NCBI RefSeq assembly: GCF_002723995.1
Contig: NZ_BEWP01000004.1
Location: forward strand, 1-64,000
Direction of reading: 5' to 3'
DNA: 64,000 nt
DNA from: Gluconobacter kondonii
GTDB lineage: Bacteria > Pseudomonadota > Alphaproteobacteria > Acetobacterales > Acetobacteraceae
Within the stretch, counting starts at the first letter, position 1. The number at the start of each line of letters is the position of its first letter. Below, one piece after another: positions 7-32,172 of the stretch. The position numbers were made by a program, and so were the translations under genes. Below the pieces are notes generated by a model that was not told the origin of the DNA, searched no databases, and worked only from the letters and a program-made list of their open reading frames with translations.

Positions 7-1365
7 TCAGACCTTGATCAGGCGCGCGGCAAAGAAGCCGTCCATGCCGCCAAGTTCGCTCCACAGGCCCGGATGGGTGCGGAACATCCCGTCCCATGTC
101 CGGGCAACGGCCATATCGGCCAGTTCCGCTTCCGAAAACGGATCGAACTTCCAGCCACCACGCGCAATCGCTGCCTTGATCCGCTCCGGACCTTCCTCGT
201 CCTGAAGCGAGCAGACTGCATAAAGCAGCACGCCACCCGGCTTGAGCATTTCATGCGCGGCATCAATCAGCGCATCCTGACCTTCCGCCAGCGCCGTCAC
301 GTCACGCGGGCGCTTGATCCACAACACGTCTGGATGACGGCGCAGCGTACCCGTCGCTGAACACGGCGCATCGAGCAGAACCATGTCCACCGGAACGTCC
401 GGACGCCATGTGGCAGCATCCGCCACAACCGTCTTCGCCGACAGCTTCAGCCGTGCGATATTTTCTTCAAGCCGCTGCGCCCGCACTTCCTCACGCTCGA
501 CCGCCACGACCTGCGCGCCCGCCGTTGCAAGCTGGGCCGTCTTGCCGCCCGGTGCCGCACACAGATCCACAACGGTCTTGCCCGACACATCGCCCATCAG
601 CTTCACCGGCATCGTGGCCGCCACGTCCTGCGCCCAAAACGCGCCGTCCTCGAAGCCTTCCAGCGTCGTGATGCGCGTCCCGGCCGGATAACGGACGGAC
701 CCTGTCGGCAGGACCTCGCCACCTTCCGGTGCGATTGCTCCTGGACGCAATGTCAGATCCAGCGGCGCCTCACGATGCAGGCCGCGCGAAATCGCCCGCG
801 CCCGTTTACCCCACGCACTCCACAACCAGGGCGGCACATCCAGCCGGTCCACGTCCAGACCATCCAAAAGCTCCTGTCCCTCACGCGAAACACGTCGCAG
901 CACGGCATTGGCCAGCCCCGCGAACGGCGCCAGACCGCGACGGCGCAACAGATCCACGATCGTCCCGACCGCCGCATGGGGCGGCGTTTCGAGATGCAGC
1001 AACTGCGCCACGCCCATCAGCAGCGCACAACGCACCGGCTCGGGCGGTTCGCGGCGCAATAGCGGCTGAAGCAGTTCGGTCATACTGCCCAGATGACGCA
1101 ATGTCGTCGCCGCCAGACGATGGGCCGAGGCGCGATCCCGCGGGTCCAGTCCTTGTCCCGCACGATCCAGCGTTGTCTCCAGCATCCGGCGATGCTCGAC
1201 CACCCCACAGACAATATCGAAGGCAAGATCGCGCGTCGGGTCCGGCGCAGGACGACGCTGCGGCGTACGGCCACCCTGTGACGACCCTTGCGGGCGGCGG
1301 GGCGCACCATTCCGGGTTCCGGAAGCCGGATTGCGGGGAGGCTTGTTGGATGGGGGCTGGGTCAT
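7..1365 (-). CDS. rsmB: 16S rRNA (cytosine-967 C5) methyltransferase RsmB
   Basis: 452-residue protein of the RsmB/NOL1/NOP2 family, which methylates C5 of a cytosine in 16S rRNA using SAM. A Pro/Arg-rich disordered leader (about 1-40) precedes a NusB-like RNA-binding region (about 41-165). The Rossmann methyltransferase fold fills roughly 240-452. The SAM loop CAAPGGKT is at 269-276. The two family cysteines are visible: Cys335 in DAPCSATG (motif IV) and Cys385 in AVCSL (motif VI, the nucleophile in relatives). It starts at an ATG divergent from yggS and shares a short promoter region with it. The basic N-terminal leader is longer than in E. coli. The family call is firm; the exact target base is inferred from the family. 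Confidence 0.93.
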   Translation of the reverse strand: MTQPPSNKPPRNPASGTRNGAPRRPQGSSQGGRTPQRRPAPDPTRDLAFDIVCGVVEHRRMLETTLDRAGQGLDPRDRASAHRLAATTLRHLGSMTELLQPLLRREPPEPVRCALLMGVAQLLHLETPPHAAVGTIVDLLRRRGLAPFAGLANAVLRRVSREGQELLDGLDVDRLDVPPWLWSAWGKRARAISRGLHREAPLDLTLRPGAIAPEGGEVLPTGSVRYPAGTRITTLEGFEDGAFWAQDVAATMPVKLMGDVSGKTVVDLCAAPGGKTAQLATAGAQVVAVEREEVRAQRLEENIARLKLSAKTVVADAATWRPDVPVDMVLLDAPCSATGTLRRHPDVLWIKRPRDVTALAEGQDALIDAAHEMLKPGGVLLYAVCSLQDEEGPERIKAAIARGGWKFDPFSEAELADMAVARTWDGMFRTHPGLWSELGGMDGFFAARLIKV

Positions 1366-22063: not shown

Positions 22064-22675
22064 ATGACCGTCCAGCCCGATCCCCGTCCAGAACCGCGCC
22101 CGCAGCCTCTGCCCGCAGATCCCGCTTCCCGGAGCCGGGCTCTGTGGGGTGGAGGTGGCCTGATCGCGGCCCTGACAGTCGGGGCCGGCGCTTTTTTCTA
22201 CACGCATAATACGGCCACACCCCTTGCCCCCGCTGTGGCCCCACCGTCCCAGAACGTGCCAGCCGTCCCCGCGGCCCAGACCGCCGCGGTTCAGCTCTCG
22301 ATGTTACCGCCCGCAAAGGCCCCTGCCGCGCTGGCCAAGAGCGGTTTCAGCCCGGCTGACCGCGCCCGTATCCTGGCAGCCGTAAAAGATGGCAAGATGC
22401 GCCTCGTAGAAATGCCGGTTCTGGACGCTTCCGGTGCTGTCGGTCAGACCATTGACGTCACCGTTTCAGGCCTGACACAACGCGTGATCCTGAACGGCAG
22501 GTTCCAGCGTCTCATTATTCCGATTGTCGAAGCCGGACAGATCCTCATCGCCCCGGTCAGTATCCCGCATGCGCCTGCCCTGATCGTTGGCGCCCTCACA
22601 GCCCTTGGCCCCGAAGCCCTGCCTGCCCTGACGACGCTCGACCAGCGCGTCCTGCTCAATGTGATCGTCCAGTAA
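22064..22675 (+). CDS. Unknown single-span membrane protein, first gene of AAA+ module
   Basis: 203 residues, not recognised. A Pro-rich cytoplasmic stub (1-24) is followed by one membrane span (about 27-46), an Ala/Pro linker (50-85) and an extracytoplasmic domain (about 90-203). That domain has alternating helix and short hydrophobic strands (VGQTIDVTVSGL, QRLIIPIVEAG, QILIAPVSI). AGGAGTGAG lies about 12 bases upstream of the ATG. It ends 11 bases before the AAA+ gene, so the three genes 22064-24906 look like one operon, divergent from rimP. It may be a partner or adaptor anchoring the ATPase complex; this is inference from position only. Confidence 0.7.
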   Translation: MTVQPDPRPEPRPQPLPADPASRSRALWGGGGLIAALTVGAGAFFYTHNTATPLAPAVAPPSQNVPAVPAAQTAAVQLSMLPPAKAPAALAKSGFSPADRARILAAVKDGKMRLVEMPVLDASGAVGQTIDVTVSGLTQRVILNGRFQRLIIPIVEAGQILIAPVSIPHAPALIVGALTALGPEALPALTTLDQRVLLNVIVQ

Positions 22676-22686
22676 GGAACTGCCCG

Positions 22687-23961
22687 GTGTTCAAGTCTCT
22701 CGTGCCCATGCTCAACCGGGCCATGCCGCTGATGATGGCCGCCTTCCTTATTCTGGCGGTGATTCAGGTCGCGGTCATGCTACACCTGTCGCTGAACGGG
22801 CTGTGGGCCGCCATCGAATGGGGACGGCGTTTTTATCTTCCGCTGGCAGGCGTCAGCGCCCTTCTGGCAGTCACGGGGCTGGCGTATGAAACATCAGCCG
22901 AAAAACTGGCGCGTCGCGGACTGCGCCGCAGGAAAGGTCTCATCATGGATGTTCTCAGCCGTCTGACGAACCGCGGAGCCCTTGAAGAGCTCATGGCCCG
23001 CGAACAGCGCGAAACCGTTCTCGACGCCGACGAACTGGCCGCGTCCCTTCGCGCCCGCGTCATCGGACAGGATCAGGTCTGCGAGGATATCGCCCAGCAG
23101 ATGCGCCGCCGTCTGGCCCTTCAGGTCCGTGGCAAGCCCGTGGGGATTTTCCTGCTCGCCGGCCCTCCGGGTACCGGCAAGACCTATCTCGCCAAACAGA
23201 TGGCGAAACAGATGGAACGCCCCCTGCTGCATTTCGACATGACGCAGATGTCCAGCGCCCATGCCGCAACGCAGCTTTTCGGCTCGCCCAAGGGCTATGT
23301 CGGCTCCGACACGTTCGGCAAACTCACCGGCGGCCTCAAAGACCATCCGGACGCCGTGGTCCTGCTCGACGAAATCGAAAAGGCCCATCCAGACGTCTTC
23401 AAGAAGTTCCTGACCGCATGGAATGATGGCCACGTCACGGAGGCCTCCACCGGCGAGCAGGTCTCGACCACGCGCGCGATCTTCATGCTGACATCCAATA
23501 TCGCCACCGAAGCCCTGACCGAAATCTCTGATCGCCTCGCCAACGAGCCTGAGAAAATGCGCGCCGAATCGGTCGAAGCTCTGCGCAAATCCGGCTTCGC
23601 GCCCGAGGTTCTCAACCGTCTGGACCGGATTTTTATTTTCCGTGCCCTGCGTGGTCTGGATCTCGCCCGCGTCGCCGCACTGGAAATCGAAGCCATGATC
23701 GAGGGTTACGGTCTGCATGTAGAAACCGGCGGTATCGACGCTGGTGTCCTGTTCCAGGTCATGATGAAACAGAAGAACCTCGGCACCGGCGCCAGTGCGC
23801 GCGATCTTGTCCGCTCCATCGAGGACATGGTCAGCGAGAGCCTGATCGTCGCGCGTCAGCAGGGCGCCAAGCGCGTCCGCCTCGTCACGCAGGACGACGG
23901 CACCGTCATTACGGAAATCGCCAGTGATACCGAAGTCCAGCTTGGTCGGGTGAGTCACTGA
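22687..23961 (+). CDS. Membrane-anchored ClpB-D2-like AAA+ ATPase
   Basis: 424 residues, GTG start with AAGGAA upstream. Two spans (about 12-33 and 48-67) tether a cytoplasmic AAA+ domain most like the second ring of ClpA/ClpB. It has Walker A GPPGTGKT (159-166), a pore loop KGYVG with Tyr204, Walker B VVLLDEIEKAH (224-234), sensor-1 Asn271, arginine finger in LNRLDR (about 309-314) and sensor-2 GASARDLVRSI (about 368-378). The Clp N-domain, first ring and middle domain are absent. The intact pore loop suggests that it threads proteins. Flanked by two single-span proteins of unknown function. It is not FtsH: there is no protease domain. Confidence 0.85.
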   Translation: MFKSLVPMLNRAMPLMMAAFLILAVIQVAVMLHLSLNGLWAAIEWGRRFYLPLAGVSALLAVTGLAYETSAEKLARRGLRRRKGLIMDVLSRLTNRGALEELMAREQRETVLDADELAASLRARVIGQDQVCEDIAQQMRRRLALQVRGKPVGIFLLAGPPGTGKTYLAKQMAKQMERPLLHFDMTQMSSAHAATQLFGSPKGYVGSDTFGKLTGGLKDHPDAVVLLDEIEKAHPDVFKKFLTAWNDGHVTEASTGEQVSTTRAIFMLTSNIATEALTEISDRLANEPEKMRAESVEALRKSGFAPEVLNRLDRIFIFRALRGLDLARVAALEIEAMIEGYGLHVETGGIDAGVLFQVMMKQKNLGTGASARDLVRSIEDMVSESLIVARQQGAKRVRLVTQDDGTVITEIASDTEVQLGRVSH

Positions 23962-23964
23962 TCC

Positions 23965-24906
23965 ATGACGGCATTCGGACGGCTCTGGCGGCGCGCGCCA
24001 CTCTGGCGCACCAGCGTGATCGTAACGGTCGGCGCGCTTGGCATGGCGGCCTTCTACCCCACCCCGGCGCTCAAGAAAGCCATGCCGTGGCTTCCGGGCC
24101 ATCTGCCGGGCGCGGCACCCGATAACGTCGCTTCCGGCGCATCACAGCCGGACGCGCAGGGGACGCAGCCCAATGGCGCGCCCGGCCTCGGTGACCAGAT
24201 CGGCGTTCCCGATCCGGGCATCACCGAACACGGCAGCCTCACCATCGCCGGACGTATCGTCCCGCTCCCGGCCGGAGACTGGCATCCAATCCTGACCGCA
24301 CGAAGCGGCGCACATGGTGAGCTTTCCCAGCAGGTTCTGGCACGAACCGATCGGGGCGTCGTCTCAGGCGTCATCGTCGTGCGCGCCACGCAGCAGCCCG
24401 TCCCGGCCGATCTGGCCGAACAGCTCGAAACCCCCTGCCATGACGACCGTGACTACGCCGCGCATATTTCAGACAAACCCGGCGTCTCGCAGGAATGCAG
24501 CTACACCAGCAACGCCGTCCTCGAGAACCAGAGTGTCAGCAGTGACCCATTCATCACGGCTGCGTTTAACCGGATGCACACACTCGGCTTTCCGGTTCCG
24601 AGTCTGATGATCAATGTCGGCTGGTATTATGCCGCAGCCGCAGGCAAGGGCACCGCTCACATCGAAACAGTCGAGACGCTCGTTGCCCCCATCGAACGCG
24701 GGTCACGTCAGCTTCTGGCGCCCCCGCAATACTGGAACAAAGCCTCGGTTCACAAAAACCCAGAGGCTTCCCAGTTCATTGACGCGCTGGACCGATGGAT
24801 GATCGGCTGGTCACGGGTTCTGCGTCAGGGCTTTGACGGAACGCTGAATACGGCGACGCTTGTGCCGCCCCTCATCAACGATCCATCCGCGCCCCAGCCG
24901 TCCTGA
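23965..24906 (+). CDS. Unknown single-span protein, third gene of AAA+ module
   Basis: 313 residues, not recognised. A basic N-terminus and one span (about 14-33) are followed by a Pro/Gly-rich linker (35-80) and a large extracytoplasmic region (about 85-300). Two Cys in the central part (TPCHDD and QECSYT) could form a disulfide. NVGWYYAAAAGKG and RWMIGWSRVLRQGFDG are distinctive and may help searches. It begins three bases after the AAA+ stop and ends at a strong hairpin shared with the convergent ABC gene. The arrangement suggests a periplasmic-facing subunit of the AAA+ complex. Confidence 0.7.
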   Translation: MTAFGRLWRRAPLWRTSVIVTVGALGMAAFYPTPALKKAMPWLPGHLPGAAPDNVASGASQPDAQGTQPNGAPGLGDQIGVPDPGITEHGSLTIAGRIVPLPAGDWHPILTARSGAHGELSQQVLARTDRGVVSGVIVVRATQQPVPADLAEQLETPCHDDRDYAAHISDKPGVSQECSYTSNAVLENQSVSSDPFITAAFNRMHTLGFPVPSLMINVGWYYAAAAGKGTAHIETVETLVAPIERGSRQLLAPPQYWNKASVHKNPEASQFIDALDRWMIGWSRVLRQGFDGTLNTATLVPPLINDPSAPQPS

Positions 24907-24909
24907 ACA

Positions 24910-24943
24910 GAGCCGGGCACCCGACTTTAGTGGTGCCCGGCTC
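24910..24943. terminator. Strong convergent hairpin without U-run
   Basis: Perfect 12-bp stem GAGCCGGGCACC / GGTGCCCGGCTC with a 10-base loop between two convergent genes. It overlaps the stop codon of the ABC binding-protein/permease gene. Neither side has a U-run, so it may act as a 3' stabiliser or a weak terminator. Confidence 0.55.
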
Positions 24944-26459
24944 CCGAGAAGCCCCGACCCAACCGCCGCTCCGCCATACGCGCCAGCCGCACGAACGGCA
25001 GTCCGAGCAGCAGATACGCCATGCCGACCATGATCCCCGTTCCGAAATAATCGTAATAGGTCGAGGACAGCCGCACATAGGTTTGGCTCAGCTCCGTCAA
25101 TGTAATAACGGAGACGAGCGAACTGTCTTTAAGCAGCGAAATGAAGTCGTTGGTCATGACCGGCACGACAGTGCGGAACGCCTGCGGCACGATCACGAGC
25201 CGCAGCGCCTGCCAGTGGGTCATGTTCAGCGCAATCGCTGCTTCCATCTGCCCCCGCGGGACGGATAGAAGCCCAGCGCGATAGTTTTCCGCTTCATAGG
25301 CTGCATAGTTCAGACCCAGCGAAATCACACCCGCCACGAAAGGCGACAGCCGGATCCCGAATGCCGGCAGCCCATAGAAAATGAACAGCACCTGAATCAG
25401 AAGCGGCGTCCCGCGCACGACCTCGACATAAATGCCCGCAACAAAACGCAGCGGAGCCGCGCCATAATGCCGCGCCAGCGCGAGCAGAAGGCCGAGCGCC
25501 ACAGCCAGAACCATGGCCAGCGCCGAAACCGCGAGCGTCATCAGCGCCGCCTGCCCGATCAGCGGCAGGAAACTGACATAGCGCCGCATCAGAACACGCC
25601 AGCCGCTGCCGGTCGTGTTCGCCATGGCCTCCTGATAACGGTTCCACTCCGTCGGTGCGATATCAGGCTGGCTGTTGTCGCCCGTGTAGTTCGCCATCAG
25701 CGGCGTCCACAGGTTCCAGCGCGCCAGAATGCGATGCAGCGTCCCGTCCTTGATGATCTCGCCGAGCGCCGCATCCACCTGGTCGCGCAACTCCCGGTTT
25801 TCGGGCGAGAACGCAATCCCGTATTCCATGCTGCCGATCGGCTCGCCCACCAGCTTCATGTCCGGCGAGATACTGCCATAATACAGCGCGATCGGCGCAT
25901 CGAGCAGGATCGCATCCAGGCGCCCGTTCCGCAGATCCGAGAACGCATTCGTCTCTTCTTCATAGGACCGGACGTTTGAGCCACCCTGCCGGCGCAACAT
26001 CCGCTCTGCCGTCGTGTCCTTGATCGTCCCGACCGTATGACCCTTGAGGGCCTCCATCGTGTCCAGCCCGGTCTGGTCATGCCGGACGATAATCCGCTCG
26101 CTCGTCACATAATACGGACGTGAGAACAGGACGGCCGCCTTGTGCTCCGGCGTCATTTCGATGCCGTCCAGCACCATGCCGTACAGCCCGCGCGACAGGC
26201 CGGGGATCAGACCGTCCCAGTCGTTCTGAACAAACTTGGCCTTGCGATGCAGACGCTCGGCAATCGCGTCGGCCAGTTCATATTCAAAGCCGGTCATCCG
26301 CGATTCATGGGCCGGATCGTGGAAAACGTAAGGCACATTCGCCTCACCGTCCGACGCCCAGAGCAGATTCTGCGACGCGGCAGCAGGCGCATCGGCCAGC
26401 GCGGCAGAAACGGGGCTGACCGCAAGAGCCAGCACAAGCGCAAGAATTTTCTTCATCAC
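24927..26459 (-). CDS. Amino-acid ABC importer: binding protein fused to permease
   Basis: 510 residues. A signal peptide (1-22) leads into a family-3 solute-binding domain (about 30-250), the class that binds polar amino acids such as Gln, His or Arg. A permease domain (about 285-495) with several spans and the EAA loop GQMEAAIALNMTHWQALRLVIVP (about 405-427) follows. Binding protein and channel are therefore one chain, an arrangement known from some Gln/Arg importers. It is coupled (ATGA) to the cognate ATPase gene upstream on this strand. The substrate cannot be fixed. Confidence 0.9.
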   Translation of the reverse strand: MMKKILALVLALAVSPVSAALADAPAAASQNLLWASDGEANVPYVFHDPAHESRMTGFEYELADAIAERLHRKAKFVQNDWDGLIPGLSRGLYGMVLDGIEMTPEHKAAVLFSRPYYVTSERIIVRHDQTGLDTMEALKGHTVGTIKDTTAERMLRRQGGSNVRSYEEETNAFSDLRNGRLDAILLDAPIALYYGSISPDMKLVGEPIGSMEYGIAFSPENRELRDQVDAALGEIIKDGTLHRILARWNLWTPLMANYTGDNSQPDIAPTEWNRYQEAMANTTGSGWRVLMRRYVSFLPLIGQAALMTLAVSALAMVLAVALGLLLALARHYGAAPLRFVAGIYVEVVRGTPLLIQVLFIFYGLPAFGIRLSPFVAGVISLGLNYAAYEAENYRAGLLSVPRGQMEAAIALNMTHWQALRLVIVPQAFRTVVPVMTNDFISLLKDSSLVSVITLTELSQTYVRLSSTYYDYFGTGIMVGMAYLLLGLPFVRLARMAERRLGRGFSGAGHH

Positions 26460-27450: not shown

Positions 27451-28086
27451 ATGACCACCCCGTCTGATTTTCCGCCACCTCCTACGCCCGGACGCCTACT
27501 CGATGTCGAGGACGTCACGGTATTCCGTGGGGACCGGCTGGTGCTAGACGGCGTGTCCCTGACGCTGGACGCCGGGGACGCCATGATCCTCACAGGGCCG
27601 AACGGGGCCGGGAAATCCACTCTTCTGCGTACGATCTCCGGCCTGCGCCGTCCCGATTCAGGCGAGGTTATCCGTTATGGCGCCCTTGCCTGGCTCGGCC
27701 ATCAGGATGCCCTTAAGCCGGGCCTGACGCTGGCGCAGAACCTTGCTCTGGCTGAAAAGCTCGGAACAACCCGTCTGCCCGACGCGCTTGACGCCCTTGA
27801 TCTTACCCATCTGACCGATCTTCCCGCGCGCCTGCTGTCCTCCGGGCAGAAGCGCCGCGCCGCTTTCGCCCGCGTCATGCTGTCCGGCGCCCCGCTCTGG
27901 CTGCTCGACGAGCCAACGGTCGGGCTGGATGTCGCCAGCATCGAACGCCTCGGCGCCGTCATGGCCGCCCATCGCGCTAGAGGCGGTGCGATGATCGTCA
28001 CGACGCATGTGCCCCTTCCCCTCGACAACACCCGCTCGCACGAACTGCCCTCGCTCGCGCATGCGGACTCCTTCTGGCTGTCATGA
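27451..28086 (+). CDS. ccmA: Cytochrome c maturation ABC ATPase CcmA
   Basis: 211 residues. CcmA is the ATPase of the CcmABCD complex that releases holo-CcmE during system I cytochrome c maturation. Walker A GPNGAGKST (49-57), GLRRPDSGEVI, WLGHQDALKPGLTLAQNL (a CcmA-specific stretch) and signature LSSGQKRR. Its stop overlaps the ccmB start. ccmC and the other ccm genes are not in this window. Confidence 0.93.
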   Translation: MTTPSDFPPPPTPGRLLDVEDVTVFRGDRLVLDGVSLTLDAGDAMILTGPNGAGKSTLLRTISGLRRPDSGEVIRYGALAWLGHQDALKPGLTLAQNLALAEKLGTTRLPDALDALDLTHLTDLPARLLSSGQKRRAAFARVMLSGAPLWLLDEPTVGLDVASIERLGAVMAAHRARGGAMIVTTHVPLPLDNTRSHELPSLAHADSFWLS

Positions 28087-28748
28087 CCGCTTTTCTCGCC
28101 CTGATCGACCGTGACCTACGCCTGGCGTTCCGCTTCGGCGCCGACACGCTGGCCTCGCTGCTCTTCTTTATATTATGTGGCAGCCTGTTTCCCCTTGCCC
28201 TCGGCCCCTCGCCCGACCTTCTGCGACATATGGGGCCGGGTATCATCTGGGTCTGCGCGCTGCTGGCCTGCCTTCTGCCGCTGGACCGCCTGTTCGGAGC
28301 CGAACTCGAAGACGGCTCTCTCGATCTGCTGATGCTGACCGGTCCGGCCCCTGCCGCTGTGGCCTTCGCCAAAATGGCCGCGCACTGGCTGACGACGGGC
28401 CTGCCTCTGCTGATCGCGAGCATCCCGCTCGGTATCATGCTGGGCGTCAAAGGCTCCGAACTGCCGCTCCTGCTGGCCGGTCTTGCGATGGGCACGATGT
28501 CCCTCTCACTTCTCGGCGGCATGGCAGCCTCAATCGTACTTGGCGCGCGGCGTGGTGGCGTTCTGCTCCCGCTGCTCGTTCTGCCGCTGGCAACGCCCGT
28601 TCTGATTTTTGGCGCGGCCTCGTCCTATGCAGGACAGTTGGCCACATCCCCCGCCGCCAGTCTGGATCTGCTGGGAGCATGCCTTTTCGCCTGCCTGCCG
28701 CTGTGCCCCCTCGCCGCCGGGCAGGGCCTCAAGGCCGCCGTAGGTTGA
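28083..28748 (+). CDS. ccmB: Cytochrome c maturation membrane protein CcmB
   Basis: 221-residue hydrophobic protein with six likely spans, CcmB family. LIDRDLRLAFRFGADTLASLLFF at the N-terminus, ALLACLLPLDRLFGAELEDGSLDLLMLTG and the last third are typical. It forms the membrane half of the heme-handling ABC transporter with CcmA. Four-base overlap with ccmA. Confidence 0.93.
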   Translation: MTAFLALIDRDLRLAFRFGADTLASLLFFILCGSLFPLALGPSPDLLRHMGPGIIWVCALLACLLPLDRLFGAELEDGSLDLLMLTGPAPAAVAFAKMAAHWLTTGLPLLIASIPLGIMLGVKGSELPLLLAGLAMGTMSLSLLGGMAASIVLGARRGGVLLPLLVLPLATPVLIFGAASSYAGQLATSPAASLDLLGACLFACLPLCPLAAGQGLKAAVG

Positions 28749-28851: not shown

Positions 28852-31800
28852 ATGCCCCAACGTCCCTCGCTCAGAAACTCCCTCCTGTCCTGCGCAGCCC
28901 TGATGGGGCTGGGGTTCAGCGTCGCGCAGGCCGAGCCGGGCTATCTGCGTGAACCCTCGATTTCCGGCCAGACTGTCCTGTTCAACGCCGAGCAGTCCGT
29001 CTGGAGCGTTCCCCTCGCGGGCGGGCAGGCCCAGCGCCTGACGACCGTGCCGCAGGGTGCGAACGCCATCGACCCGCATCCCGTCATTTCCCCGGACGGC
29101 ACCCAGATCGCCTTCGCCGCCAATTTCGACGGCCCGACCGAAATCTACATCATGCCCCGCAGCGGCGGCACGCCGCATCGCCTGACCTTCGAGAACGTCG
29201 CGCGTCTGAAGATCATCGGCTGGGACGCGCATGCCGGGGTGCTCTATGCCAGCCCTGCCGCAACCGGCCCCTATTACAGCCAGACCGTCTCGGCCATTGA
29301 TCCGAAAACCGGCGCAACGCGCGTCTTCCCGCTTTCCGGCGCGAACGATGCCGCGCTCAGCCCGGACGGACGCTGGCTTTATGCTGTCCGCTTCGGCCTC
29401 GCCACGACCGGCGATCACATGCGCGCCTATCGCGGCGGCGCCCTGTCCCAGCTCTGGCGCTTCGACCTTCAGAACGGCAAGGAAGCCGAGCGCATCGGCA
29501 CGCGTGACGCTAACCTGATCCGCCCGATGCCTTGGCGCGACCGCCTGATCGTCATTTCCGACGAAAACGGCCGCTACAATCTGTGGAGCCTCGCCACCGA
29601 CGGCTCGGACGCGAAACAGCTCACCCATTTCACGGATTACAGCGTCCTCGAGGCCGCCATTTCCGGCGATCATATCGTCTTCCGTAAAGGCGCGGACCTG
29701 TTCGATTTCAATCTGGCCAGCGGTGAGACCACGCCCGTCAAGGTGGACCTGACCTCCGACAACCTGCCCCGCAGCCCGTACTGGCTGGAAAAGCCAACGC
29801 GCTTCATGACGTCCTCGACCATCTCCCCCAAGGGCGATGCCGCTGCTTTCACCATGCGCGGTCATGTCGTGGTCGCCGGCGCTTCACCCCGCCGCGTCGT
29901 CGTTCTCGCCACACCCGATAACGTCCGCCTGCGTCTCGCCCAGATCACGCCGGACGGCCAATCCGTCCTTGCCTTCAGCGATGCAGGCGGCGATTCTGCC
30001 CTGTGGCGCTTTGCAGCCGACGGCAGCGGCAAGGGCGAGGCCATCACCCAGCCCTCCTCCACCGAGCCCGTGGCGCTGTCTCTTTCCCCGGATGGCAAAT
30101 ACGCCGCCCATACCGACCTTCTGGGCCACCTCTGGCTGACGGACCTGTCCACCAAGGCCGACAAACTGGTCGATAACGCCACGCTGGACGGCACCAACGT
30201 TTTTGATTCCGTATCCTGGTCCCCGGATGGACATGTTCTGGCCTATGTCCGCACACGCGGCACGAACCTGCGTCGCCAGATCGCCCTTTACGTCCCCGCC
30301 ACGGGCCAGTCGAACTGGGTGACGGACGGGCGCTATGAATCCTATACGCCCAGCTTCTCCCCGGACGGCAAATGGCTGTGGTTCCTGTCGGACCGCACGT
30401 TCTCGCTCGCCAACGGCTCGCCCTGGGGAGACCGCAATATCGGACCGGCCTTCCCGAAGCGGACCGGACTTTATGCCCTCGCCCTCCAGTCCGGCGAACG
30501 CTTCCCGTTCCAGCCCGCAACCGAACTGGACCCGACGGACAAGAAGCCCGACGCTGATAAAAAGGACGACAAGAAGAAAGACGGCGACAAGAAAAAATCC
30601 CTTCCCGCCATCGAATGGGCCGGGATCGCCACACGTCTCTATCAGGCCCCGGTTCCGGCCGGAGACTATGAAGGCCTCGGCGTTTCGGACGACTATCTGT
30701 TCACGATCGACAATTCCGGCTCAGGCGACGGTCCGGGCGATCTGAAGTCGATCCACATCGACAATAACGAACACAAGATTGAAACCTACGCGGCCAAGAT
30801 TTCGGATTTCGACATCACCCCGGACGGCAAGACCCTTCTGACCCTCAGCCGTCGCGGCAAAAACGCGCCGGAACTGCTCCTGACGCCCGCTGGCGAGAAG
30901 CAGCCCAAAGAACTGGACGGCAAGAAGATCGACCTCGACCATCTGCGTCTGCGGATCGACCCCGGACAGGAATGGGCGGACGAATTCGTGGACGCCTGGC
31001 GCCTGCACCGCGACCACTATTATGACCGCGACCTGCACGGCGTGGACTGGAAAGCCGTACGCGCCCATTTCGCCCCGCTCGTGGACCGTCTCGGCGATCG
31101 TGCGGATCTCGATGATCTGCTCGGCCAGATGGTGGCGGAAATCGGCGCCATGCACTCCCAGCTCCACGCGCCCACGACCTTCGACCAACCCGCTTCCAGC
31201 CTCATTGCCGGCCTCGGCGCGCATCTGACGCATGAGGACAAGGGCTTCCGGATCGACCACATCTATCAGGGCGACCGCGACCTGCCCGACCAGCAGTCCC
31301 CGCTGGCCGCGCCCGGCGTGGACGCCCGGAACGGCGATCTCATCATCGCAATCAACGGTCAGCCGACCGCAGGCCAGCCCGATCTCGGCTCGTTGCTTGC
31401 CGATCAGGCCGGAAAGCAGGTTCTGCTGACGCTCTCGCGCGGCGGAAAGGACCACAAGATCATCGTGACGCCCGTGTCTTATATGAAAGAGCGTGACCTG
31501 CGCGCACGCGACTGGGAAGTCAGCCGTGCTGATGTTGTCGACCGGGCCAGCCATGGTCGCATCGGCTATCTGCACCTGCAATCCATGGTCAGCGACGACA
31601 TGGAAGCGTTTGCCCGCGAGTTCTATGCCAATATCGATAAGGACGGCCTGATCGTGGACGTCCGTGGCAACACGGGCGGCAATATCGACAGCTGGGTTCT
31701 CACACAGCTCATGCGTCGCCCGTGGATGTTCTGGGGCCGCTACGGCAACGCGCCGTCGGTGGATATGCAGCAGTCCTTTCAGGGGCGTCTGATCGTCCTG

Positions 31801-32172
31801 TCCGATGAAATGACCTATTCGGACGGCGAGACCTTCTCGCAGGGCATCAAGTCCCTGCATATCGCCCCGCTGTTGGGCGAGCGGACCGCAGGCGCGGGCG
31901 TCTGGCTCTCGGACGGAGACCGCCTTATCGACAACGGCAATGCCCGTACAGCCGAAAATCCTTATTTCGACCTGAACGGACAATGGCTGGTCGAGAACAA
32001 GGGCGTCTCTCCGGACATTGAAGTCGAGAACATGCCGGTTGCCACCTTCAATGGACAGGACCAGCAGCTCGACGCAGCCCTCACATGGCTGCGCAAGGAT
32101 ATGGCCGACCATCCGCGTCCAACCCTGAAACCCGCTCCCTTCCCGGCCCAGCAGCCCGCCGCCCCGAAATAA
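28852..32172 (+). CDS. Secreted tricorn-type S41 serine protease
   Basis: 1106 residues with a signal peptide (1-27). The N-terminal half is a chain of TolB/WD40-like beta-propeller blades (many SPDG repeats) to about 560. A Lys/Asp-rich insert (about 563-583) and a second propeller-like part follow, then a C1 core region, a PDZ domain (about 805-880) and the S41 peptidase domain. The nucleophile is Ser990 in MTYSDGETF, matching the tricorn active site; GNTGGN near 945 is the oxyanion region. It is a periplasmic homologue of archaeal tricorn protease, probably degrading peptides. It ends at a bidirectional terminator. Confidence 0.9.
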   Translation: MPQRPSLRNSLLSCAALMGLGFSVAQAEPGYLREPSISGQTVLFNAEQSVWSVPLAGGQAQRLTTVPQGANAIDPHPVISPDGTQIAFAANFDGPTEIYIMPRSGGTPHRLTFENVARLKIIGWDAHAGVLYASPAATGPYYSQTVSAIDPKTGATRVFPLSGANDAALSPDGRWLYAVRFGLATTGDHMRAYRGGALSQLWRFDLQNGKEAERIGTRDANLIRPMPWRDRLIVISDENGRYNLWSLATDGSDAKQLTHFTDYSVLEAAISGDHIVFRKGADLFDFNLASGETTPVKVDLTSDNLPRSPYWLEKPTRFMTSSTISPKGDAAAFTMRGHVVVAGASPRRVVVLATPDNVRLRLAQITPDGQSVLAFSDAGGDSALWRFAADGSGKGEAITQPSSTEPVALSLSPDGKYAAHTDLLGHLWLTDLSTKADKLVDNATLDGTNVFDSVSWSPDGHVLAYVRTRGTNLRRQIALYVPATGQSNWVTDGRYESYTPSFSPDGKWLWFLSDRTFSLANGSPWGDRNIGPAFPKRTGLYALALQSGERFPFQPATELDPTDKKPDADKKDDKKKDGDKKKSLPAIEWAGIATRLYQAPVPAGDYEGLGVSDDYLFTIDNSGSGDGPGDLKSIHIDNNEHKIETYAAKISDFDITPDGKTLLTLSRRGKNAPELLLTPAGEKQPKELDGKKIDLDHLRLRIDPGQEWADEFVDAWRLHRDHYYDRDLHGVDWKAVRAHFAPLVDRLGDRADLDDLLGQMVAEIGAMHSQLHAPTTFDQPASSLIAGLGAHLTHEDKGFRIDHIYQGDRDLPDQQSPLAAPGVDARNGDLIIAINGQPTAGQPDLGSLLADQAGKQVLLTLSRGGKDHKIIVTPVSYMKERDLRARDWEVSRADVVDRASHGRIGYLHLQSMVSDDMEAFAREFYANIDKDGLIVDVRGNTGGNIDSWVLTQLMRRPWMFWGRYGNAPSVDMQQSFQGRLIVLSDEMTYSDGETFSQGIKSLHIAPLLGERTAGAGVWLSDGDRLIDNGNARTAENPYFDLNGQWLVENKGVSPDIEVENMPVATFNGQDQQLDAALTWLRKDMADHPRPTLKPAPFPAQQPAAPK

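Follow-up and report, generated by a model that had tools for sequence, protein, structure and literature searches.

Clp-type rings equipped with a tyrosine pore loop act by threading polypeptides, and the familiar membrane-anchored AAA+ machine of bacteria is FtsH, in which two N-terminal spans precede one cytoplasmic AAA+ ring with its own protease attached. Torsin, a Clp-D2-like ring with the bitopic partners LAP1 and LULL1, is lumenal, and the eukaryotic Msp1/ATAD1, which belongs to another AAA class, has one membrane span. Msp1/ATAD1 is described as a membrane-anchored AAA+ protein that pulls membrane proteins from the bilayer (PMC7018516, PMC9273213). In a stretch of 64,000 nucleotides of Gluconobacter kondonii DNA (contig NZ_BEWP01000004.1, positions 1 to 64,000, assembly GCF_002723995.1; hereafter the window), we describe three head-to-tail genes in which a single-ring, Clp-type AAA+ ATPase with a predicted membrane hairpin (orf2) lies between two predicted single-span proteins with outer domains (orf1 and orf3). 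The trio is a real, conserved unit in acetic acid bacteria and in some related bacteria, and apparently an undescribed one: the titles and abstract openings of the open-licence papers searched held no description of this operon layout. The reading that we favour, at a little under an even chance, is that it encodes one inner-membrane machine, in which a membrane-tethered threading ATPase would be docked on the cytoplasmic tail of orf3 and orf1 would serve the ATP-driven step.

22064..22675, + strand: orf1, 203 aa; probable N-in single-span protein with an Ala/Pro linker followed by a predicted beta-sandwich
22274..22672, + strand: predicted outer domain of orf1 (residues 71-203)
22687..23961, + strand: orf2, 424 aa; predicted membrane-hairpin single-ring Clp/HSP100 D2-type AAA+ ATPase
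22726..22887, + strand: two-span membrane hairpin of orf2, predicted from hydropathy (residues 14-32 and 49-67), with a basic stretch after it
23161..23184, + strand: Walker A of orf2, GPPGTGKT (residues 159-166)
23290..23304, + strand: tyrosine pore loop of orf2, KGYVG (residues 202-206)
23362..23373, + strand: Walker B of orf2, LLDE (residues 226-229)
23965..24906, + strand: orf3, 313 aa; predicted N-in single-span protein with an outer domain
23983..24009, + strand: predicted cytoplasmic-tail motif of orf3, LWRRAPLWR (L[WR]xxAxxWR)
24223..24849, + strand: predicted outer domain of orf3 (residues 87-295), with conserved PLPxGxW and a possible Mog1/PsbP-like fold

The ATPase and its two partners

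An earlier note on this DNA had proposed a tight operon around a ClpB-D2-like single-ring ATPase that has two N-terminal spans, keeps Walker A and B, sensor-1, the arginine finger, sensor-2 and KGYVG, and lacks the Clp N-domain, first ring, middle domain and any protease; each of these points is borne out here. The genes are separated by 11 bases (orf1 to orf2) and 3 bases (orf2 to orf3), and orf2 starts at a GTG codon with AAGGA ahead of it and 8 bases between. By its profile matches, orf2 belongs to the Clp/HSP100 D2-type AAA+ class: it scores 128.7 bits against AAA_2 (3e-37; cut-off 27), its residues 85-404 align to the second ring of ClpB (positions 532-848 of 853; 172.8 bits), and its top solved relatives come from ClpE, ClpB, ClpC and ClpA, in each case the second ring. 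The top-scoring profile across all libraries tried was phrog_4871, a phage family annotated as an ATP-dependent protease (202.8 bits; query residues 103-407 on 449-753 of 764), of which orf2 matches only the last part, without the remainder, while adding a hairpin.

With the second rings of ClpB, ClpA and ClpE, orf2 shares Walker A and B, the sensor-1 Asn and sensor-2 Arg, the arginine finger and the tyrosine pore loop, and all eight catalytic and pore residues that were checked, assigned by the known roles of AAA+ motifs, are present (K165, T166, Y204, D228, E229, N271, R311 and R372). It differs from these proteins in having a membrane hairpin and no N-domain, first ring, middle domain or ClpP tripeptide; because it is only 424 residues long, none of these domains, nor a protease domain, fits within it. 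ClpP-partner unfoldases carry an I-G-F/L tripeptide loop, and I[GA][FL] occurs in 0/96 intact orf2 sequences within residues 270-315, the expected ClpP-loop region, so that a ClpP-dependent Clp unfoldase was rejected. Other named families were rejected on score, namely ClpA, ClpB itself (TIGR03346; 172.8 bits against a cut-off of 1232.1), the type VI secretion (T6SS) ATPase ClpV (TIGR03345; 145.7 against 884.95), FtsH (FtsH_fam; 18.9 bits of 600, over query residues 151-179 only, and with no room for a protease domain) and Torsin (25.5 bits, below the gathering score of 27).

The hydropathy peaks of orf2 are followed directly by the basic stretch and, because basic stretches stay cytoplasmic under the positive-inside rule, both of its ends are placed in the cytoplasm (a predicted N-in/C-in topology). 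This arrangement resembles that of FtsH, whereas the AAA ring of orf2 is of the Clp D2 type and carries no metalloprotease. Torsin resembles the trio in combining a Clp-D2-like ring with bitopic partners but is lumenal, in contrast to the predicted cytoplasmic position of orf2, and Msp1/ATAD1 lacks such operon partners. By analogy, orf2 perhaps works like an FtsH without its protease, or like Msp1/ATAD1.

In the profile search that the earlier note had suggested for all three proteins, AAA_2 was found for orf2, and the window copies of orf1 and orf3 matched no Pfam family at E<=1. The hydropathy peak of orf1 (residues 27-45) is marginal (1.52) and a second above-threshold window (160-178) falls inside the predicted beta-domain; a single span is probable. 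Its C-terminus is mostly conserved as V-I/V-V-Q, and members of its family give only scattered weak profile matches. In orf3, the hydropathy peak lies at residues 18-36 and Cys158 and Cys178 are invariant in 31/31 aligned sequences. Its outer domain possibly has a Mog1/PsbP-like fold, judged from structure comparisons whose Z values lie where chance matches also fall, and no sequence match between that family and the domain was found among PDB chains or Pfam. Proteins found across the Alphaproteobacteria (L059-L070) share the orf3 outer domain, including PLPxGxW and the cysteines, behind signal-peptide or lipoprotein-like starts; some of them end in SHOCT or DUF2061, and the shared domain is without a Pfam match.

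Co-inheritance of the three genes

We examined 127 loci of at least 8 kb, 115 of which hold orf2; because the G handles and the named loci overlap in genomes (for example L036 and L089), distinct orf2 sequences were counted, 103 in all. In 95 of the 103, the eight catalytic and pore residues are present and orf1, orf2 and orf3 stand in this order on one strand, a count that includes loci with damage (orf1 frame-broken in L049 and L097, the orf2 start damaged and orf3 broken in L154, orf3 over two frames in L182) and two in which a contig end cuts orf3 (L160 and L135). At L182 (5847-6787) the two orf3 frames overlap, and orf1 and orf2 look intact. The remaining eight sequences comprise a partial orf2 that has both partners and lacks its hairpin and sensor-2 parts (L156), a plasmid relative (L035) and six dead ATPases; all eight residues are kept in 96/103 distinct sequences. 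Since the scan retained 80 named loci (the best 80 of 116 relatives) and all three genes occur in 80/80 of them, their grouping is far above chance. The closest named locus among these best 80 is that of Gluconobacter cadivus LMG 1744, whose orf2 is 100% identical, and in the family alignment 16 of the 17 other rows are 64-80% identical to the window, the seventeenth being from Microvirga (43%).

Matches to orf2 were found in 46/200 genomes of the Acetobacteraceae, an undercount because G061 and G136, both with a dead orf2, fell below threshold, and matches to orf3 in 52/200. Sampling from the order gave orf2 in 100/200 genomes, sampling from the class in 2/385, and sampling across the phylum in 2/398 (the window's own genome and one of the same family); in the searches at class and phylum level few candidates were scored for each genome (4, and at most 6 for the orf3 domain), and distant relatives were possibly missed.

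All 103 loci from acetic acid bacteria carry rimP and nusA, and 82 of them also the transporter gene. At 11 deeper-branching loci there was no rimP, nusA or fused transporter gene, two showing some ABC ATPase, and the neighbours differ among the seven with listed open reading frames (ORFs); the division into these two groups was made after the contexts had been inspected. The deeper loci keep the unit in other surroundings, so the trio stays together when its neighbourhood changes, and no fourth gene accompanying it was noticed in the loci whose neighbours were listed. The survey thus supports the earlier note's claim of one conserved unit, with consistent co-occurrence in order across the Acetobacteraceae; the genes do not separate freely, six of the eight sequences outside the ordered set being dead ATPases that lack orf1 only, and orf1 and orf3 do not fall into unrelated, well-known families.

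The best-conserved part of orf3 is its first 15 residues, which are predicted to be cytoplasmic (mean column conservation 0.81, against 0.48 in the span, 0.29 in the linker and 0.46 in the outer domain). The motif L[WR]xxAxxWR within them is present in 115/115 orf3 copies adjoining orf2 and in 0/14 domain-only orf3 relatives, a set in which L062 609-1328 was chosen via the PLP motif rather than by profile and in which L068, and possibly others, have doubtful starts. Because it is found in every copy beside orf2 and in none without, the tail looks like a docking element for the ATPase, as its sequence conservation supports. The 115 copies include a diminutive one from a Microvirga plasmid (L035 11586-13414), where an orf2 relative with intact motifs (42.5% identity over 91%) is followed, 10 bases downstream, by an unannotated 64-residue frame holding the tail motif and a span and no outer domain. 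The simplest reading of this mini-orf3 is that tail and span would bind orf2 and that the outer domain would be a replaceable head. A 125-residue gene with a soluble-looking product lies immediately upstream of the same orf2 relative.

Dead ATPases and the loss of orf1

In six loci (L046, L155, L047, L152, L153 and L180) orf2 has lost the Walker A Thr and the pore Tyr, with variable loss of Walker B and other residues. No orf1 was detected at any of the six, while orf3 with its tail motif is present at all of them; orf1 accompanies all 96 Acetobacteraceae orf2 sequences in which the P-loop, pore and Walker B residues are intact (L156 included). The count of dead loci excludes L186, whose orf2 score of 139.6 bits is below the 150-bit limit. 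When five of the six (L180 left out) were compared with seven intact Acetobacteraceae members and the Microvirga relative, the pore segment was 3-39% identical to that of the window in the dead, 87-94% in the intact and 52% in Microvirga, and Walker B 6-50%, 94-100% and 72%. The corresponding ranges were 37-49%, 58-71% and 40% in the lid, and 32-46%, 35-54% and 19% in the membrane hairpin.

All six dead genes are open frames. In the three pairs tested, synonymous distance is very high or at saturation, which suggests that selection still acts on the dead proteins. In a tree built from two neighbouring genes (34 rows, holding five of the six dead loci and not L180), accounting for the dead state takes three changes, on supported branches, and the hypothesis of one origin was rejected (approximately unbiased (AU) test, p 3.65e-6). 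Live-looking and dead members occur together within two genera (L040 with L152, and L049 with L153 and L180). The persistence of dead orf2 together with orf3 suggests that ATP hydrolysis is dispensable for part of the job, be it holding, sensing or scaffolding.

The unit is also reduced further or missing. A remnant without hairpin or P-loop, 340 residues long and still open, lies beside rimP at L186 (7055-8074), where neither orf1 nor orf3 was detected; at L187 rimP and the transporter gene are 229 bases apart and no member of the trio lies between them; and none of the three was found within 13 kb around rimP at L183, L184, L185, L188 and L189, by either loss or never having been present. 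All three genes are found in other small genomes (1.9 to 2.2 Mb; L042, L044 and L181).

A proposed mechanism and its alternatives

We propose that orf2 forms a Clp-type AAA+ ring, by family analogy a hexamer, at the cytoplasmic face, with the two-helix hairpin as its tether, and that it would spend ATP drawing polypeptide through the tyrosine-lined pore. Pulling the cytoplasmic tails of membrane proteins would be its likeliest task, since it has a hairpin, no protease and no ClpP tripeptide, and its substrates, presumably envelope proteins, would be extracted or remodelled without being handed to a protease. The standing membrane partner would be orf3, its short cytoplasmic tail (RLWxRAPLWR) docking on orf2 and its outer domain acting as receptor or holder on the outer face, while orf1 would be an outer beta-sandwich partner needed mainly while ATP is spent, a tie to the ATP cycle suggested by its absence beside dead ATPases. 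In the earlier note's account, the idea of a Clp-type ATPase tethered in the membrane, with partner domains that are extracytoplasmic, agrees with the sequence evidence, and an unfoldase role in envelope protein handling keeps the standing of a proposal. To that account the survey adds that some lineages do without a working ATPase, that they lack orf1 as well, and that the tail of orf3 is what stays linked to orf2 throughout.

Several observations weigh against the favoured reading. The tail motif was defined only after the sequences had been inspected, it is retained equally in loci with a dead ATPase, and detection of the Microvirga mini-orf3 came from an orf3 profile that itself contains the tail (E 8e-6, via tail and span). 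The Walker A Lys is kept in all six dead proteins, so that nucleotide binding by them remains possible, and the joint loss of orf1 and the ATPase residues amounts to three independent pairs, too few for a sign test to reach significance (p 0.25). No orf1 could be detected beside the Microvirga relative with its intact ATPase motifs, and L049 pairs a live-looking ATPase with a frame-broken orf1; orf1 is thus not strictly required in either. Finally, an orf2 remnant is present at L186 without orf3 and, because the whole unit is absent from several small genomes, it is not essential there.

The strokes of the ATPase on the orf3 tail might instead displace orf3 (and orf1), thereby switching an outer activity, with no client extracted. 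Such force transduction would suit a conserved tail that is short and predicted cytoplasmic, as well as the absence of orf1 and the persistence of orf3 in the dead-ATPase loci, but we consider it unlikely, the full Clp-type core, tyrosine pore loop included, being kept in a way that suggests real threading (pore-segment identity in the seven intact members) and the tail being kept just as well beside a dead ATPase. Slightly less likely again is an ATP-dependent scaffold or switch, an assembly chaperone for one dedicated envelope enzyme that leaves threading unused: the six loci in which dead ATPase and orf3 are retained as open frames point to a function partly free of ATP hydrolysis, yet catalytic and pore residues are conserved in nearly all distinct sequences. 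That orf2 feeds a protease, whether ClpP, FtsH or another, seems improbable; its Clp D2 core and its best phage profile, annotated as an ATP-dependent protease, are what such a role would predict, whereas the ClpP tripeptide is absent from every intact sequence, orf2 has no protease domain and no fourth gene was noticed staying with the trio in the loci listed. An anti-phage defence or mobile-element module is highly improbable, for although the AAA region gives PADLOC matches to PDC-M37B (1.2e-24) and DolB (1e-19) and one relative sits on a Microvirga plasmid, the constant company of rimP and nusA in the acetic acid bacteria marks a fixed core position. Scarcely credible is a decaying ClpB paralogue with chance neighbours, which would account for the several small genomes in which orf2 is dead, reduced to a remnant or missing but is contradicted in most lineages by the 64-80% identity and the constancy of motifs and order.

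Beyond the threading machine that we favour, it is conceivable, if doubtful, that the unit represents a new, membrane-embedded class of bacterial Clp motor, one that has repeatedly been converted into an ATP-independent pseudo-ATPase receptor without orf1. Cytoplasmic ATP-driven pulling would then be coupled to two dedicated outer-face proteins, dead orf2 plus orf3 would make up the receptor, and orf1 would be the motor-specific partner that was lost.

In the window, rimP (identified by profile) flanks the trio on one side, divergently transcribed, with nusA and infB beyond it, both named from their ORF sequences. On the other flank, facing orf3, is a gene that fuses the solute-binding and permease domains of an amino-acid type ABC transporter (24927-26459, 510 residues). 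Further on lie an ABC ATPase gene and an overlapping membrane-protein gene (27451-28748), which we take to be a pair resembling the haem exporter genes ccmA-ccmB, and a gene for a 1106-residue protein with a signal-like start (28852-32172), presumably similar to a tricorn-type S41 peptidase. The genome, of 3.27 Mb, holds three further matches to orf2, at 39% (residues 117-334), 34% (79-347) and 35% (132-236) identity.

If the proposed mechanism is true, acetic acid bacteria would have, beside core translation genes, an envelope motor of a new kind, a protease-free Clp-class membrane ring with dedicated outer-face partners. The natural series from intact to dead ATPase, remnant and absence offers ready-made tests of which parts require ATP; a dead AAA+ protein that is retained repeatedly would give a clean example of how pseudo-enzymes evolve.

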